From: Affinirhizobium straminoryzae
GTDB taxonomy: Bacteria > Pseudomonadota > Alphaproteobacteria > Rhizobiales > Rhizobiaceae
Direction of reading: 5' to 3'
NCBI RefSeq assembly: GCF_007004135.1
Contig: NZ_VJMG01000001.1
Coordinates: 1-64,000, forward strand
DNA length: 64,000 nt
The notes under the pieces are model-generated. The model had not been told where the DNA came from. It made no database searches and saw nothing but the letters and a program-made list of their open reading frames with translations. Within the stretch, counting starts at the first letter, position 1. Every line of letters begins with the position of its first letter. Positions 12,198 through 47,127 of the stretch are shown here, piece by piece. The position numbers were made by a program, and so were the translations under genes.

Positions 12198-14198
12198 ATG
12201 ATCTACAAGGCTATCGTCTTTCTTCCCCTGATCGGCTTCCTGATCGCCGGCCTGTTTGGTCGTTCGATCGGGGCCAAGGCATCCGAATACGTCACCACGG
12301 GCCTGATGGTCGTCGCGGCCGTCCTGTCCTGGGTGGTCTTCTTCAACGTGGCGCTCGGCCACGCCGAAGGTCATGAAGTGATCAAGGTCAGCGTGCTGCG
12401 CTGGGTCCAGTCCGGCGGCCTCGATTTCGAATGGGCCTTCCGCATCGACACGCTCACCTCGGTGATGTTCGTCGTGGTGAACTCGGTCTCCTGCCTCGTT
12501 CACCTCTATTCGATCGGCTACATGCATCACGACCCGCATCGGCCGCGCTTCTTCGCCTATCTGTCGTTGTTCACCTTCGCCATGCTGATGCTGGTGACCT
12601 CCGACAACCTGGCGCAGATGTTCTTCGGCTGGGAAGGGGTGGGTCTTGCCTCCTACCTGCTGATCGGCTTCTGGTTCAAGAAGCCGTCTGCCTCGGCGGC
12701 CGCGATGAAGGCCTTCATCGTCAACCGCGTCGGCGACTTCGGCTTCGTGCTCGGCATTTCCGGCGTCTTCGTCCTGTTCGGCTCGATCAACTTCGACACC
12801 ATCTTCGCTACTGCCCAGACCTATCTGCCGGCGGAGGGCGCTGCCGATGCGCATCAGGCTGTGATCAACCTGTTCGGCCTGCATCTCGACAAGGCGCATG
12901 CGATCACCGGCGTCTGCCTGCTCTTGTTCATGGGCGCCATGGGTAAGTCGGCACAGTTCCTGCTGCACACCTGGCTGCCGGATGCCATGGAAGGCCCGAC
13001 CCCGGTTTCGGCCCTCATTCACGCCGCAACCATGGTCACCGCCGGCGTCTTTCTCGTTGCCCGCATGTCGCCGCTCTTCGAACTGTCGCCGGATGCGCTG
13101 ACCTTCGTGACGATCATCGGTGCCATCACCGCCTTCTTCGCCGCGACCGTCGGTCTGGTGCAGAACGACATCAAGCGCGTGATTGCCTATTCGACCTGCT
13201 CGCAGCTCGGCTACATGTTCGTGGCGCTCGGCGTCGGCGCCTATGGCGCGGCCGTCTTCCACCTCTTCACGCACGCCTTCTTCAAGGCGCTCCTGTTCCT
13301 TGGCGCCGGCTCGGTCATCCATGCCGTCGATGGCGAGCAGGACATGCGCTACATGGGCGGCCTTCGCAAGCACATCCCCTATACCTTCTGGGCGATGACG
13401 ATCGGCAACCTGGCGCTGACCGGCGTCGGTATTCCCGGCACCATGTTCGGCTTTGCCGGCTTCTTCTCCAAGGACGTGATCATCGAGTCGGCCTATGCCT
13501 CGCACTCGGCGGTTTCGGGCTTCGCCTTCACCCTGCTGGTCGTTGCGGCTCTCTTCACGAGCTTCTACTCCTGGCGTCTCGCCTTCCTCACCTTCTTCGG
13601 CAAGCCGCGGGCCTCGTCGGATGTCATGCATCACGTGCATGAATCGCCGATGGTGATGCTGCTGCCGCTCGCCTTCCTGACTGTCGGCGCCGTGTTTGCC
13701 GGTGTCGTCTTCGAAGGCCATTTCTTCGGCGAGGAGTATCAGGAGTTCTGGAAGGGCGCGCTCTTCACCTCCGAGCACAACGAGATCCTGCACGAATTCC
13801 ATCACGTGCCGCTGCTCGTGAAGTGGAGCCCGTTCATCGCCATGATCACCGGTCTGGTGACGGCCTGGTACATGTACATCAAGTCGCCGTCGACGCCGAA
13901 GCGTCTCGCCGAAAACCACCGGGTTCTCTACCAGTTCCTGCTCAACAAGTGGTATTTCGACGAGCTCTACGACTTCCTCTTCGTCCGCTCCGCCAAGGCA
14001 CTTGGCCGGTTCCTGTGGAAGAAGGGTGACGTCGCCGTCATCGACGCCTATGGCCCGAACGGCATTGCCGCCCGCGTCTCGGACATCACGCGCGGTGTCG
14101 TGCGCCTGCAGTCCGGCTACCTCTATCACTATGCGTTTGCGATGCTGATCGGCATCGCAGCCCTCGTCACCTGGATGATGCTCGGGAGTTCCTTCTGA
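12198..14198 (+). CDS. nuoL: NADH-quinone oxidoreductase subunit L
   Basis: The largest proton-pumping antiporter-like subunit, 666 aa. The N-terminal extension and proton-conducting core include [18 protein letters not shown] (with the key Glu), [20 protein letters not shown] and the lysine helix. The C-terminal region from about residue 530 forms the long lateral helix that braces NuoM and NuoN. Its stop overlaps the nuoM start (TGATG), so the two are coupled. Confidence 0.97.
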
Positions 14199-24789: not shown

Positions 24790-25398
24790 CTACCAGCTGC
24801 CGGACAACGCATTGCCGGAGAGCGGAATGGCGCGCTCGGCGCCCGCCGGGTCGCGCAGCGAGAGCGCCGGCTGCATCTGCTTCGGCGCCTTGCGGAACCA
24901 CTGGCTGGCAATGCTGGCAAGGTCGCCGATCAGGCCCTGGCCCCGCCAGTCGGCAAAGCGCCGGGCCATCGCTTCCGGCTCGGCATGAAGGAAGAAGTCG
25001 CCGGATTGCCCGAGATCGTTGATCGAGGCGGCCATGGCGCTGACCGGCTTCTGGAACATGCGGGCCGGCACCTCGGCCGTCTTCACCGCCTGCGGAAAGG
25101 CCGGCGCCATGAAGTCGAGGACGAAACCCTCTGCTTCCACCCAGCAGTGGAAGGTTTCGCCCGCGCCGGTCACATAGCCGTCGTCGCGGTGATCGGCAAA
25201 CAGCACGATGGTGCCACCCAGATTATAGGCCGCCAGCCCGCCCTTCGGCACCGCCTGCAGCTTGAAGTGATGCTTCAGGATGAAGGCGCCGAAGCTCGCA
25301 AAATACATCGAGGCGGTGGCGGGATCGGCCTTCTGCGCCACAAGCAGGCTGTGGATGACCTTGTAGATCCGGTGATAGTCGCTCTGCTTGATCAGCAT
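24790..25398 (-). CDS. DUF2026 family protein
   Basis: A 202-aa soluble protein beginning MLIKQSDYHRIYKVIHSLL. The segments GGLAAYNLGGTIVLFAD and FHCWVEAEGFVLDFMAPAFP, with a conserved Cys-Trp and Asp, match my memory of DUF2026, whose fold may relate to papain-like or transglutaminase proteins; function is unknown. The frame is open further upstream to 25728, but that extension encodes tandem-repeat DNA (VGSGQWAV-type translation) and is not real. The ATG at 25398 is preferred. Confidence 0.8.
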   Translation of the reverse strand: MLIKQSDYHRIYKVIHSLLVAQKADPATASMYFASFGAFILKHHFKLQAVPKGGLAAYNLGGTIVLFADHRDDGYVTGAGETFHCWVEAEGFVLDFMAPAFPQAVKTAEVPARMFQKPVSAMAASINDLGQSGDFFLHAEPEAMARRFADWRGQGLIGDLASIASQWFRKAPKQMQPALSLRDPAGAERAIPLSGNALSGSW

Positions 25399-25793
25399 GG
25401 GTGTGCCTTCCGCCTGTGATGTGCCGGGTTCCAGTAGGCGAGGCGCCGGCGGATGTAAACGGCTGGATGATGTCCGCGCCTGACTGTCTTCGGCCGGCCC
25501 TCCGCCCCGGAACGCAAAGCACTGGCCTCCCCGATGCGTGTGCCCTCTGCCACCCGTCTGTCTTGCCTCGGAAATCGGCCTGTCGCACCGGAAAACACCG
25601 CCTGCCAGACTGCAATGCGAGCCTTCCACTGCCCACTGCCCACTGCCCACTGCCCACTGGCCGCCGCTCCGTCCTGATGTTTTCCTGATGCCCGCGGGCA
25701 CGCTCCCCAATCGAAACCTGATCTGCATCGGCCTAACCTTGCGGCATTGGTGATGTCGTTGCTGGCAACGGCATGTTCAGGGGAGTTCGTTCA
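25399..25793. other. Spacer with a heptamer array between divergent genes
   Basis: About 395 bases between DUF2026 (minus) and the first small membrane ORF (plus). Apart from the tandem heptamer array at 25626-25660, I see nothing assignable. Short open frames here are translations of the repeat. Confidence 0.5.
25626..25660 (+). repeat. Tandem heptamer array CCACTGC x5
   Basis: Five consecutive 7-bp units, four perfect CCACTGC (25626-25653) and a last CCACTGG. The unit length equals that of the arrays around the four-helix-bundle gene at 2.5-2.9 kb, but the unit sequence differs and no inverted partner or bundle gene is present nearby. Confidence 0.9.
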
Positions 25794-27395: not shown

Positions 27396-27543
27396 GGCCG
27401 AATGCAGCGTCACAGCACGGGTCGAAACCGGCCGCGTGAAGAATGGCGGCTGCGCACGGCGCATCGGCCGGCAGCGGAGAGAATTCGGGTCCCTGTGGAA
27501 AGCGGGCAAAACGACCTCCATTTACCTCCGGTTAAACAAGTTT

Positions 27544-27558
27544 GTTCCGCCTTCGTTC
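27544..27558 (+). promoter_or_regulatory. LexA (SOS) box 1
   Basis: GTTC (27544-27547), seven bases, GTTC (27555-27558): an exact match to the alphaproteobacterial LexA site GTTC-N7-GTTC. It lies 64 bases before the 36-codon ORF and 16 bases before a second, oppositely oriented box. Confidence 0.8.
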
Positions 27559-27573
27559 TTTTTGTTGACGGGT

Positions 27574-27588
27574 GAACATATTTGGAAC
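27574..27588 (-). promoter_or_regulatory. LexA (SOS) box 2
   Basis: GAAC (27574-27577), seven bases, GAAC (27585-27588): the LexA direct repeat read on the minus strand. Its centre is 30 bases, about three helical turns, from box 1. A TTGACG (27565-27570) just before it could be the -35 element of the downstream ORF, so LexA bound here would cover the promoter spacer. Confidence 0.82.
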
Positions 27589-27621
27589 AAAGTAGAAACA
27601 TAACGGAAAAGGAGAGCGCTG

Positions 27622-27732
27622 ATGACTGACTACCTCCGCGATGTGGCTGCTTTTGCCTCCATGATGACCTTTCTCGTCTGCGTCTGCGTTTACCTCATGG
27701 CCATGGGGCCGGGCGGTGTCCCCACATTTTAA
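27622..27732 (+). CDS. 36-aa membrane peptide behind two LexA boxes
   Basis: A 36-aa ORF with an excellent AAAAGGAG site (27607-27614) 7 bases before the ATG. Residues about 8-28 form one hydrophobic helix containing two cysteines (FLVCVCVYLMAM), with a short charged N-terminus and a Gly/Pro tail. It lies 33 bases after a LexA box and 48 bases before dnaE. In Caulobacter the LexA-controlled 29-aa membrane peptide SidA blocks cell division on DNA damage; I infer an analogous, not necessarily homologous, role here. I know no named family for this sequence. Confidence 0.7.
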   Translation: MTDYLRDVAAFASMMTFLVCVCVYLMAMGPGGVPTF

Positions 27733-27780
27733 GGTGATGCGGAAAGCTTCGGCTGGACTTCACCCCTCCGAGACCGGACA

Positions 27781-30700
27781 ATGGCTGCCTCTGAATCGGA
27801 TGGCGGCGACATGGCAGATGGAAATGACACGGCGGTTTCGGGCGATCAGACGGAGGCAGATCCGCACTTCGTCCACCTGAGGGTTCATTCCGCCTACTCC
27901 CTGCTGGAAGGGGCGCTGCCGCTCAAGAAGATCCTCGGCAAGGCCGCCTCGGATGGTCAGCCGGCGATTGCCATTACCGATACCAACAATCTGTTCGTCG
28001 CCCTGGAATTTTCCCAGAAGGCCATGGATGAAGGCATCCAGCCGATCATCGGCTGCCAGATGGCCATCGACATGGAGGATCAGGGCGAGGAAAAGCGCGG
28101 CAACCAGAACGGTCTCGCCAAGCTGCCGGCGCTCGTGCTGCTTGCCACCAATGCGGTGGGCTACGAGCGGCTGGTGGATCTCGTCAGCCGTGCCTATCTC
28201 GGCGGTGAAGGCAGTCATCAGGCGGTGCACATCGCCATGTCCTGGCTGGAAGAGGGGGGCGCGGATGGCATCATCGCGCTCACCGGCTTTGCCTCCGGGC
28301 CGATCGATCCGCTGCTGAAGGAAGGCCATGCGGCCCAGGCGGAGCAGCGTCTTCTCCGGCTGAAGGCGGTGTTCGGCGACCGGCTTTATGTCGAGTTGCA
28401 GCGGCATGGCCGCTACGACCGGCGCCACGAACGCCGGCTGATCGAGCTTGCCTACCGCCACGACCTGCCGCTGGTTGCCACCAACGAGGCCTTCTTCCCC
28501 TCGAAAGGCGAATATGACGCGCATGACGCGCTGATGGCGGTGGCGCACAACGCGATCGTGTCCGATGACAGCCGTTTCCGCCTGACGCCGGATCATTATC
28601 TGAAGAGCCGGGCGGACATGGCAAAGCTGTTTGCCGATCTGCCGGAGGCGCTGGACAACACCGTCGAGATCGCGCGGCGCTGCTCCTTCATCCTGAAGAC
28701 GCGCAAACCCATCCTGCCGCGCTTCACCGGCGCGACGGAGGATGCGGAGGAGGCCGAGCGTGCCGAATCGGCGGAACTGCGCCGCCAGTCGGTGGAAGGT
28801 CTGGAACAGCGACTGGCCGCACTCGGCATGGCGGCCGGCTATACCGAACAGGATTACCGCGAGCGGCTGGATTTCGAGCTGTCGGTCATCGAGCGCATGA
28901 AGTTCCCCGGCTACTTCCTGATCGTGTCGGACTTCATCAAATGGGCGAAGACGCAGGATATTCCGGTTGGCCCCGGCCGCGGTTCCGGTGCCGGCTCGCT
29001 GGTCGCCTATGCGCTGACCATCACCGACGTCGATCCCTTGCGCTTCTCGCTGCTGTTCGAGCGCTTCCTCAACCCGGAACGCGTCTCGATGCCGGACTTC
29101 GACATCGACTTCTGCCAGGATCGCCGCGAAGAGGTGATCCGCTACGTGCAGCAGAAATACGGCCGCGAGCAGGTGGCGCAGATCATCACTTTCGGTTCGC
29201 TGCAGGCGCGTGCGGCGCTGCGCGACGTCGGCCGCGTGCTGGAAATGCCCTATGGCCAGGTCGACAAGATCTGCAAGCTGGTGCCGAACAATCCGGCCAA
29301 TCCCACGCCTCTCTCCAAGGCGATCGAGGAGGAGCCGAAGCTGCAGGAGGAGGCGGAGAAGGAACCCGTCGTCGCCCGCCTGCTCGATATCGCCCAGAAG
29401 ATCGAGGGGCTTTACCGCCACGCCTCGACGCATGCCGCCGGCATCGTGATCGGCGACCGGCCGCTGTCGAAGCTTGTGCCGATGTACCGCGATCCGCGCT
29501 CCGACATGCCGGTCACCCAGTTCAACATGAAGTGGGTGGAACAGGCTGGTCTCGTGAAGTTCGACTTCCTCGGCCTGAAGACCCTGACGGTTCTGAAGAC
29601 GGCGGTGGATTTCGTCGCCAAGCGCGATATCCATGTGGATCTCGCAAAGATCCCGCTCGATGACACCAAGACCTACGAGATGCTCTCGCGCGGCGAAACC
29701 ATCGGCGTGTTCCAGGTGGAAAGTGTCGGCATGCGCAAGGCGCTGCTCGGCATGAAGCCGGACTGCATCGAGGATATCATCGCGCTGGTGGCGCTTTATC
29801 GCCCGGGCCCGATGGAAAACATCCCGGTCTACAATGCCCGCAAGCATGGCGAGGAAGAGATCGAATCGATCCATCCGAAGATCGATTACCTCCTGAAGGA
29901 AACGCAGGGCGTCATCGTCTACCAGGAACAGGTCATGCAGATCGCGCAGGTCCTGTCCGGCTATTCGCTCGGCGAAGCCGATCTTCTGCGCCGTGCCATG
30001 GGCAAGAAGATCAAGGAGGAGATGGACAAGCAGCGCGCCCGTTTCGTGGATGGCGCGATCAAGAACGGCGTGTCCAAGCCGCAGGCCGACCTGATCTTCG
30101 ATCTTCTGGCAAAGTTCGCCAATTACGGCTTCAACAAGAGCCACGCCGCGGCTTACGCCATCGTCTCCTACCAGACGGCCTATATGAAGGCGCATTATCC
30201 GGTCGAGTTCCTCGCCGCGTCGATGACCTACGACATGGCCAATACCGAGAAGCTGAACGATTTCCGGCAGGATGCGTCGCGCCTCGGCATCAAGGTGGTG
30301 CCGCCATCGATCCAGACCTCGTTCCGCAAGTTCGAGACCGGCGAGAACTGCATTTTCTATTCGCTGGCCGCCATCAAGGGCGTCGGCGAATCGGCGGTGG
30401 AGCATATCGTTTCGGTGCGCGGCGACACGCCCTTTGCCAGCATCGAGGATTTCTGCCTGCGCATCGATCCCAAGCAGGTGAACCGCCGCGTGCTGGAAAG
30501 CCTGATCTATGCCGGTGCCTTCGATTGCTTCGGCAAGGACCGCGCCGAACTGGTGACGGGCCTCGACCGCATCATCGGCTATGCGCAGCGCGCCGCCGAA
30601 GGCAAGACGAGCGGCCAGCACGACATGTTCGGCTCCTCGTCTGCGGCCGGACCTGAAAAGCTGATCCTGCCCTCCTTCGACCCCTGGACCGCATCGGAAA

Positions 30701-31311
30701 AGCTGATGCGCGAATATCAGGTGCTCGGCTTCTATCTCTCGGCCCATCCGCTCGATACCTACAAGGATGTGCTGGCCAAGATGCGTGTGCAGAATTTTGC
30801 CGAGTTTTCCGCCGCCGTGAAAGCCGGCGCCTCGGCCGGGCGTCTGGCGGGAACCGTGACGGCCAGGCAGGAGCGCAAGACGCGCACCGGCAACAAGATG
30901 GGCATCGTCACCTTCTCGGATGCGACCGGCCAGTTCGAGGCGATCCTGTTTTCCGAGGCGCTCAACCAGTACCGTGACCTTCTGGAGCCAGGCAAATCGC
31001 TGGTGATCACCGTGCAGGCCGACGAGCGGCCGGAAGGCATCGGCCTTCGCATCCAGACGGTCCAGTCGCTGGAAGAAAAATCGGTGCAGATGCAGAAGGC
31101 GCTGCGGGTCTATGTGCGCGATTCCGGTCCGCTGAAAACGGTTGCCCGGCATCTGAATGCCCGGGGCGACGGCCTCGTCTCCTTCATCGTCATCAAGGAT
31201 GACGGCAGGCGGGAAATCGAGGTGGAACTGACGGAGAAATTCCGCCTCTCGCCGGAGATCGCCGCGGCTCTGCGCGCCGCACCCGGCGTTCTGGACGTGG
31301 AACTGGTCTGA
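27781..31311 (+). CDS. dnaE: DNA polymerase III subunit alpha (replicative)
   Basis: Catalytic subunit of the replicative polymerase, 1176 aa, the length of DnaE1 rather than the shorter mutagenic DnaE2. The PHP domain starts FVHLRVHSAYSLLEGALPL near residue 30; the catalytic aspartates are in PDFDIDF (438-444), preceded by VGPGRGSGAGSLVAYAL; a helix-hairpin-helix and an OB-fold (GIVTFSDATGQFEAILFSE) follow. The start is not certain: ATG 27781 has only a weak site, and ATG 27811 is a second choice. It lies 48 bases behind the SOS peptide ORF and may share its transcript. Confidence 0.94.
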   Translation: MAASESDGGDMADGNDTAVSGDQTEADPHFVHLRVHSAYSLLEGALPLKKILGKAASDGQPAIAITDTNNLFVALEFSQKAMDEGIQPIIGCQMAIDMEDQGEEKRGNQNGLAKLPALVLLATNAVGYERLVDLVSRAYLGGEGSHQAVHIAMSWLEEGGADGIIALTGFASGPIDPLLKEGHAAQAEQRLLRLKAVFGDRLYVELQRHGRYDRRHERRLIELAYRHDLPLVATNEAFFPSKGEYDAHDALMAVAHNAIVSDDSRFRLTPDHYLKSRADMAKLFADLPEALDNTVEIARRCSFILKTRKPILPRFTGATEDAEEAERAESAELRRQSVEGLEQRLAALGMAAGYTEQDYRERLDFELSVIERMKFPGYFLIVSDFIKWAKTQDIPVGPGRGSGAGSLVAYALTITDVDPLRFSLLFERFLNPERVSMPDFDIDFCQDRREEVIRYVQQKYGREQVAQIITFGSLQARAALRDVGRVLEMPYGQVDKICKLVPNNPANPTPLSKAIEEEPKLQEEAEKEPVVARLLDIAQKIEGLYRHASTHAAGIVIGDRPLSKLVPMYRDPRSDMPVTQFNMKWVEQAGLVKFDFLGLKTLTVLKTAVDFVAKRDIHVDLAKIPLDDTKTYEMLSRGETIGVFQVESVGMRKALLGMKPDCIEDIIALVALYRPGPMENIPVYNARKHGEEEIESIHPKIDYLLKETQGVIVYQEQVMQIAQVLSGYSLGEADLLRRAMGKKIKEEMDKQRARFVDGAIKNGVSKPQADLIFDLLAKFANYGFNKSHAAAYAIVSYQTAYMKAHYPVEFLAASMTYDMANTEKLNDFRQDASRLGIKVVPPSIQTSFRKFETGENCIFYSLAAIKGVGESAVEHIVSVRGDTPFASIEDFCLRIDPKQVNRRVLESLIYAGAFDCFGKDRAELVTGLDRIIGYAQRAAEGKTSGQHDMFGSSSAAGPEKLILPSFDPWTASEKLMREYQVLGFYLSAHPLDTYKDVLAKMRVQNFAEFSAAVKAGASAGRLAGTVTARQERKTRTGNKMGIVTFSDATGQFEAILFSEALNQYRDLLEPGKSLVITVQADERPEGIGLRIQTVQSLEEKSVQMQKALRVYVRDSGPLKTVARHLNARGDGLVSFIVIKDDGRREIEVELTEKFRLSPEIAAALRAAPGVLDVELV

Positions 31312-34144: not shown

Positions 34145-34159
34145 GAACAAAGGTTGAAC
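34145..34159 (-). promoter_or_regulatory. LexA (SOS) box of dinB
   Basis: On the minus strand the sequence is GTTC, seven bases, GTTC, an exact alphaproteobacterial LexA site, ending 5 bases before the dinB start. A TTGTGC and TAAGGT pair 17 bases apart just upstream could be its promoter. Confidence 0.82.
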
Positions 34160-46023: not shown

Positions 46024-47127
46024 GCGGCCGGCCAGATCGAGCTCTAGCAGCACCAGGTAGACCGTGGAGGCAGGCAGCCCGGTGTGGCGTATGATGTCGT
46101 CGATTTCGACGGGCGTCGGCCCCAGCGCGCCGGCGATGCGCTGCCGGTCGCTGTCGTCGGGCGGCATCATCTGGTCTGTCGATCGTTCGGCGCCGGGTTC
46201 GTCGATCACCCGGTTCGCCAGGAGTTCGAGCTGGCTGAGCGGCGCCAGCGCTTCCAGCACGTCGCCGGCGCTGGTCGTTACGGTCGCGCCCTGCTTCAGC
46301 AACCCGTTGGTGCCCTCGCAGCGCGGATCGAGCGGGGAGCCGGGTACGGCAAAGACCAGTCGGCCGAAATCACCGGCGAGGCGGGCTGTGATCAGTGAAC
46401 CGGAGCGTGCCGCTGCCTCCACCACGACCACGCCAAGCGAGATGCCGGCAATCAGCCGGTTGCGGCGGGGAAAGTCGCGGGCTCGCGGTTCCCAGCCAAA
46501 CGGCATTTCGCTGACTGACAGGCCATGACCACCGGTGATCTCGTCCAGCAGCGGCACGTTCTCTGGCGGATAGGGCTGGTCGAGCCCGCCCGCCAGCACG
46601 GCGATCGTCCCGGTTTCCAGGCTTGCCCGGTGGGCGGCGGTATCGATGCCGCGCGCAAGGCCCGAGGTGATGCTATAGCCAGCGCGGCCGCAATCGCGGG
46701 CCAGCATCGCCGCAAATTTGGCGCCGCTGATCGAGGCATTGCGCGAGCCGACGATGCCGACGGAGGGTGAGGCTGCCACGGAAGCATCGCCCTTCATGGC
46801 GAGGAGCGGCGGGGCGCCATCGATCTGGCGAAGGGCCGGCGGATAGTCCGGCTCGCCGATCCCGACGAGGCGGGCGCCGAAGCGACGAGCGCGCTCCAGT
46901 TCCCGCTCGGCCTCGTCCACGGAGGCGATGCGGATGCTGCGGGATGCGCCGCCGCGGCGCGAAAGCTCCGGCAGGGCCTGCAGGGCGGCCTCTGCCGAGC
47001 CGAAATGGTTTATGAGATCGCGAAAGGTCGAGGGGCCGACATTGTCGCTGCGGATCAGCCGCAGCCAGGCGATCCTCTGTTTGTCCGTCAGCGCAATTCC
47101 AGGTCGTCTTGCGCCGTCGGATGCCAT
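45976..47127 (-). CDS. dprA: DNA-processing protein DprA
   Basis: Loads RecA on incoming single-stranded DNA during transformation; widely conserved also in non-competent species. The 383-aa protein has an N-terminal helical domain, the Rossmann-like core ([49 protein letters not shown]) and a C-terminal winged helix ([21 protein letters not shown]). The frame is open to 47496 through plsY, but the methionine at 47127 begins the family match, 5 bases past the plsY stop. Confidence 0.93.

Follow-up and report, generated by a model that had tools for sequence, protein, structure and literature searches.

A putative SidA ortholog with LexA-type boxes ahead of dnaE in Affinirhizobium straminoryzae

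What is the role of a 36-codon open reading frame (ORF) that lies just ahead of dnaE in A. straminoryzae and is preceded by two LexA-type boxes? The locus was analyzed within a stretch of 64,000 nucleotides (contig NZ_VJMG01000001.1 of assembly GCF_007004135.1, positions 1 to 64,000), here called the window. An earlier note, made by a model from the sequence, had described the ORF as a possible SOS-controlled membrane peptide resembling the division inhibitor SidA of Caulobacter. The features of the locus are as follows.

27544..27558, + strand: LexA-type box 1, GTTCCGCCTTCGTTC, an exact GTTC-N7-GTTC located 5' of the −35-like element (direct reading)
27565..27570, + strand: −35-like TTGACG, between the two boxes (direct reading)
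27574..27588, − strand: LexA-type box 2, GAACATATTTGGAAC on the + strand and GTTCCAAATATGTTC on the − strand, lying 3' of the −35-like element, ahead of the start (direct reading)
27596..27599, no strand assigned: degenerate third half-site AAAC, continuing the 11-nt register of box 2
27609..27614, + strand: Shine-Dalgarno AAGGAG, 7 nt ahead of the ATG
27622..27732, + strand: peptide ORF, putative sidA ortholog, 36 amino acids (aa), consisting of a conserved 28-aa core with a single predicted helix and an 8-aa C-terminal tail, GPGGVPTF
27781..31311, + strand: dnaE, replicative DNA polymerase III alpha, by its Pfam domains; a conserved neighbor

Direct reading confirmed the two exact boxes in opposite orientation that the earlier note had reported (GTTCCGCCTTCGTTC on the + strand and GTTCCAAATATGTTC on the − strand), with centers at 27551 and 27581 and thus 30 bases apart. 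The TTGACG between them, the strong ribosome binding site (AAGGAG) and the 36-codon ORF were likewise all found in place. The third half-site is an addition to the earlier note; its layout is also visible in many relatives, and GGAG-type Shine-Dalgarno sites occur in most relatives listed. The first possible ATG of dnaE, at 27781, is 48 nt 3' of the peptide ORF. Elsewhere in the neighborhood, a gene for a DUF2026 protein (24790-25728, −) lies between an ABC transporter ATPase gene and dnaE, and Rfam matches were obtained for the alphaproteobacterial sRNA ar9 (RF02343; 20645-20790, −) and for EcpR1 (RF02500; 37479-37586, +), the latter some 10 kb away from the peptide gene. Both matches agree with an assignment to Rhizobiaceae. 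EcpR1 is an alphaproteobacterial sRNA that acts as a cell-cycle regulator in Sinorhizobium meliloti.

Exact GTTC-N7-GTTC boxes occur five times in the window, compared to a mean of 1.47 in shuffled sequence, and 2 of 100 shuffles reached five. By a simple rate estimate, a pair of boxes no more than 40 nt apart is expected approximately 0.003 times per window. The lexA gene of the same genome carries an exact box of the same type 45 nt ahead of its likely start. A scan of 27400-27850 for consensus sigma-70 elements found no consensus −10; the promoter assignment therefore rests on TTGAC and its conservation. The position of box 2, downstream of the −35-like element and upstream of the start codon, is one from which bound LexA should block RNA polymerase. 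No terminator-like site was found between the peptide ORF and dnaE in a scan of the same interval, and with dnaE only 48 nt 3', some dnaE transcription may share the peptide promoter. Among the remaining boxes, one (34145-34159, −) is a few bases 5' of 34139, where the gene for a dinB-type polymerase with Pfam IMS domains may start, which suggests that this gene may also be under SOS control; those at 13923-13937 (+) and 46213-46227 (+) may be due to chance, judging by the shuffle expectation.

The peptide was matched in all 57 genomes of the window's genus, its own included, with every best E value below 0.002, and loci were read from 30 of these. Across 29 genus loci, pN/pS was 0.258 in the reading frame and 0.51 to 3.9 in the five other frames, while pairwise differences numbered 4952 at third, 2298 at first and 664 at second codon positions. 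The amino acid sequence of the peptide is under purifying selection, and the ORF is a gene. Searches of Pfam and NCBIfam returned no family for the peptide.

In the same 29 loci, identity dropped past the usual 28-codon stop. Specifically, 56 loci were first fetched from the genus and family, of which 52 met a strict pattern (L014, L043, L046 and L050 fell outside it and were read later); a 28-aa product was found in 50 of the 52, the exceptions being the window and L002, from a sister species. The product is also 28 aa in 51 of 63 dnaE-linked relatives in the family, compared to 36 aa in the window. In the window, the 28-codon stop of the relatives has been lost (27706-27729), giving the tail GPGGVPTF, which among the loci read is common only to L002. 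Between these two, the eight tail codons carry 4 synonymous changes and no nonsynonymous one, which suggests, on very few sites, that the tail may be under constraint. A single-sequence AlphaFold2 model, made with no alignment, predicted a helix over residues 2 to 28 (mean pLDDT, 83), and hydropathy reached a maximum of 2.28 over 19 residues. The single membrane helix described earlier is thus predicted here as well; the two Cys residues listed with it (20 and 22) are not a family feature, as these positions are mostly Ser, Thr or Ala in relatives. A redox role for the Cys pair was rejected, as the residues are not conserved. An acidic residue at position 7 (D7) and F17 are near invariant, each present in 98% of 62 family peptides.

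Boxes are conserved together with the ORF. Of the 30 genus loci read, 13 have an exact box no more than 100 nt from the start (next 100 nt as control, 0/30). If one mismatch is tolerated, all 30 have a box there (control, 3/30), which leaves 17 loci with one-mismatch boxes only. At that tolerance box 2 is kept in 29/30 loci and box 1 in 28/30; beyond the genus, box 1 is rare and box 2 is the common one. All 30 genus loci contain TTGAC; among the 63 family relatives, 51 have it no more than 90 nt from the start.

For the family, meaning the one to which the window belongs in the genome collection, a profile was seeded from genus and family peptides and then iterated. The DnaE search matched 110 of 111 genomes (G129 gave none); 109 besides the window's own were examined, and for 107 of these the upstream sequence reached 500 nt. 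The peptide stands directly ahead of dnaE in 63 of these 109 genomes and is absent there in 46, a figure that gives prevalence and not independent discovery, as some seeds came from the surveyed genomes. The strand contrast serves as the control: over 7065 ORFs from all groups, the iterated profile gave 75 forward-strand hits and 0 reverse-strand hits at E ≤ 1. The gap between peptide and dnaE varies widely among the family genomes. Of the 63 dnaE-linked relatives, 56 have an exact box no more than 120 nt from the start, compared to 0/62 for the next 120 nt. When the 500 nt ahead of dnaE were considered, 50 of the 62 family genomes that have the peptide contained an exact box, compared to 0 of the 45 that lack it (shuffle means, 0.9 and 0.8). 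At the dnaE locus, box and peptide are gained and lost together in the family. The earlier note had named, as a check on the ORF, whether its frame and boxes persist ahead of dnaE in relatives; these counts, with the in-frame pN/pS given above, show that they do.

SidA of Caulobacter is presumably encoded by CC1927. Caulobacter dnaE is CC1926 (PMC1839093), and sidA is given as CCNA_02004 in PMC10769358. SidA is described as a 29-aa inner-membrane, SOS-induced division inhibitor that interacts with FtsW (PMC4211646), and the filamentation of a lexA-null Caulobacter strain is attributed to sidA (PMC12700426). In the order of Caulobacter sp. BP25, 42 of 150 genomes were matched at E ≤ 1, and the best 21 loci (E ≤ 1.5e-4) were read. 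All 21 of these best loci of the 42 carry a peptide ahead of dnaE, 26 to 30 aa in length (18 of them 29 aa), which starts 136 to 192 nt before the FVHL motif of DnaE. An exact box lies within 150 nt in 14 of the 21, and 7 are without one. Judged by size, box and place, this Caulobacterales peptide should be SidA.

When 17 distinct Caulobacterales peptides were compared with the family profile, the fraction of composition-preserving shuffles scoring as well was 0 to 0.019, and 14 of the 17 aligned at offset 0; the background was composition matched, and the tests are not independent, as the peptides are related to one another. Shuffling the N-terminal and helix parts separately gave fractions of 0 to 0.062, the upper value belonging to the worst peptide. 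Columns common to both groups are R/K6, D/E7, A/S10, F/L11, S13 and F17. At position 3, most family peptides have Asp or Glu and most Caulobacterales ones have Arg. W19 and M20 occur in all 18 of the 29-aa Caulobacterales peptides and correspond mostly to small residues in the family. The window core and the peptide of Caulobacter sp. BP25 share 6 of 28 residues; since this is a low identity in a short hydrophobic sequence, the case for orthology leans on place, box and register. The tie in sequence between the window peptide and the Caulobacterales peptide thus appears to be of moderate strength. As the latter occupies the same place and fits the family profile in register, the window peptide looks like its ortholog. 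The earlier proposal was of a LexA-controlled peptide with the same logic as SidA; conservation, place and the in-register fit support it and extend it to likely orthology.

Overall, we put the probability that the window ORF is a SidA ortholog, with LexA-released inhibition of the late divisome as its most likely mechanism, at roughly 0.85. By analogy with Caulobacter, the window peptide would act as a division inhibitor. LexA would normally occlude the peptide promoter; upon DNA damage, RecA would trigger self-cleavage of LexA, the promoter would be freed and the peptide made. The peptide would then insert into the inner membrane, bind the late divisome (FtsW/FtsI/FtsN) and hold it inactive, and constriction would wait until LexA was restored with repair done.

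A reading that shares this orthology is that the SidA ortholog has been retargeted in the window's family, for example, to another envelope or elongation protein, and is SOS controlled without inhibiting septation. The C-terminal half does differ between the clades (W19 and M20 versus small residues), and the window lineage adds a tail; however, the N-terminal half is common to both clades, and in low-confidence AlphaFold 3 models by others, which place SidA against TM7 of FtsW, FtsW is a common target of such peptides (PMC13396833). We regard retargeting as unlikely.

Size, a single helix and LexA control would also fit an SOS-induced toxic peptide of the TisB or DinQ kind, which depolarizes the membrane and slows growth without binding the divisome, and such peptides are described (DinQ, PMC3567139; TisB, PMC8145889). 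Against this stand the place and register shared with the Caulobacterales peptide and the near-invariant D7 and F17, which would exceed the needs of a generic pore helix. As to the paired antisense RNA that goes with type I toxins of this kind, no Rfam RNA family was matched at the locus at the gathering threshold, a search that an undescribed antisense RNA could escape. A toxin of this kind has, in our judgment, only a slim chance of being correct.

Copies of the peptide gene away from dnaE bear on a further reading. In eight family genomes (G086, G123, G125, G127, G128, G135, G141 and G153), peptide and dnaE are on different contigs or over 40 kb apart; none of these has a peptide ahead of dnaE, and all eight off-site copies keep an exact box. 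Twenty family loci were chosen by hand as lying off dnaE or unplaced. Nineteen of the 20 gave the peptide (L445 did not), each with an exact box within 130 nt (19/19), and no DnaE-like motif was found in the short stretch 3' of the peptide in those 19 loci, for eight of which the place of dnaE is known. Peptide genes off dnaE were seen in several family genera (L043, L046, L050, L431-L444 and L446-L450), and the copies read keep an exact box. Such copies with boxes argue that the peptide is not merely a dnaE leader, and a leader peptide in the strict sense, always in cis and largely free in sequence, was rejected on the eight off-dnaE copies and purifying selection. The broader idea of an upstream ORF (uORF) in the dnaE 5'-UTR that tunes dnaE expression, as proposed for sORF25 in the S. 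meliloti dnaE1 5'-UTR, with the peptide itself mattering little, draws on the position of the ORF 48 nt ahead of dnaE and on an adjacency kept in 63/109 family genomes but is very improbable in view of the selection on the amino acid sequence, the widely varying gap and the eight boxed copies elsewhere.

How far the arrangement of the putative SidA ortholog extends was considered across the class. With the family profile alone, 21 of 385 genomes were hit at E ≤ 0.1, the window's own included, and the best other E value was 0.0025; hits outside the family at this threshold, all weak, were treated as chance. ORFs of Pannonibacter and Parvibaculum match the family profile too, and Pannonibacter was counted as intermediate. 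Sequence homology is not claimed for the ORFs of Bosea, Microvirga and Parvularcula (shuffle fractions, 0.08 to 0.11) or for that of Brevundimonas terrae, whose fit is weak (fraction, 0.02). A class-wide DnaE search matched 111 of 114 genomes, and 110 loci were examined, the window's own included (G416 was left out); in a set of 20 named genomes, 19 were matched and Ponticaulis gave none. Among class loci that the profile did not hit and for which 500 nt could be read, an exact box lies ahead of dnaE in 19 of 105, compared to a shuffle mean of 0.9 (maximum, 3). A box together with a short hydrophobic ORF was found ahead of dnaE in 8/109 loci on the forward strand and 0/109 on the reverse, and KD precedes the helix in five of these eight ORFs. 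These patterns suggest that the arrangement of box, peptide and dnaE may be ancestral in the class, although the finding of nothing strong in other families by the family profile alone is a point against it. We consider it rather likely that SidA is an ancestral alphaproteobacterial SOS checkpoint ahead of dnaE, spanning Caulobacterales and the window's family and later relocated a number of times, that sORF25 of S. meliloti is SidA, and that the window lineage added a tail under its own selection.

With the window ORF as a likely SidA ortholog, rhizobia and their relatives gain a named candidate for the protein that stops division after DNA damage. The gene is tiny and easily missed in annotation; it is conserved well beyond Caulobacter, and the peptide family provides a motif to search with. 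A likely function also becomes available for sORF25, which ribosome profiling had left among possible uORFs, and natural variants are at hand with which the face of a minimal inhibitor that contacts FtsW could be mapped.

A search of the open-licence literature found no rhizobial SidA among the entries listed. Among the novel translated ORFs that ribosome profiling revealed in S. meliloti 2011 is sORF25, in the dnaE1 5'-UTR; uORF roles were proposed for some ORFs of its group, and the terms LexA and SidA are absent from the main text of that paper (PMC10117765). Like the window ORF, sORF25 is a short ORF at dnaE (dnaE1), and it is translated; compared by place alone, it is probably the S. meliloti copy of the window peptide gene. 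DidA of Caulobacter resembles the window peptide in its small size and as an inhibitor of division, which it blocks through the FtsW/FtsI/FtsN complex, but is SOS independent and binds FtsN, whereas the window ORF has LexA-type boxes (PMC4211646). Identity with DidA, which would imply SOS-independent expression, was set aside, since the LexA-type boxes conserved with the ORF point to SOS control. YneA of Bacillus subtilis, ChiZ of Mycobacterium tuberculosis and SosA of Staphylococcus aureus are larger than the window peptide. They are comparable as DNA-damage-induced late-division inhibitors with one helix, and YneA and ChiZ are set apart, by description, by their LysM domains (PMC13396833). 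Compared to SidA of Caulobacter crescentus, the window peptide has 36 aa with the GPGGVPTF tail, a core of 28 rather than 29 aa and a diverged C-terminal half; common to both are a short single-helix peptide, LexA control, here read from boxes only, and, going by the Caulobacterales loci read, a place ahead of dnaE.
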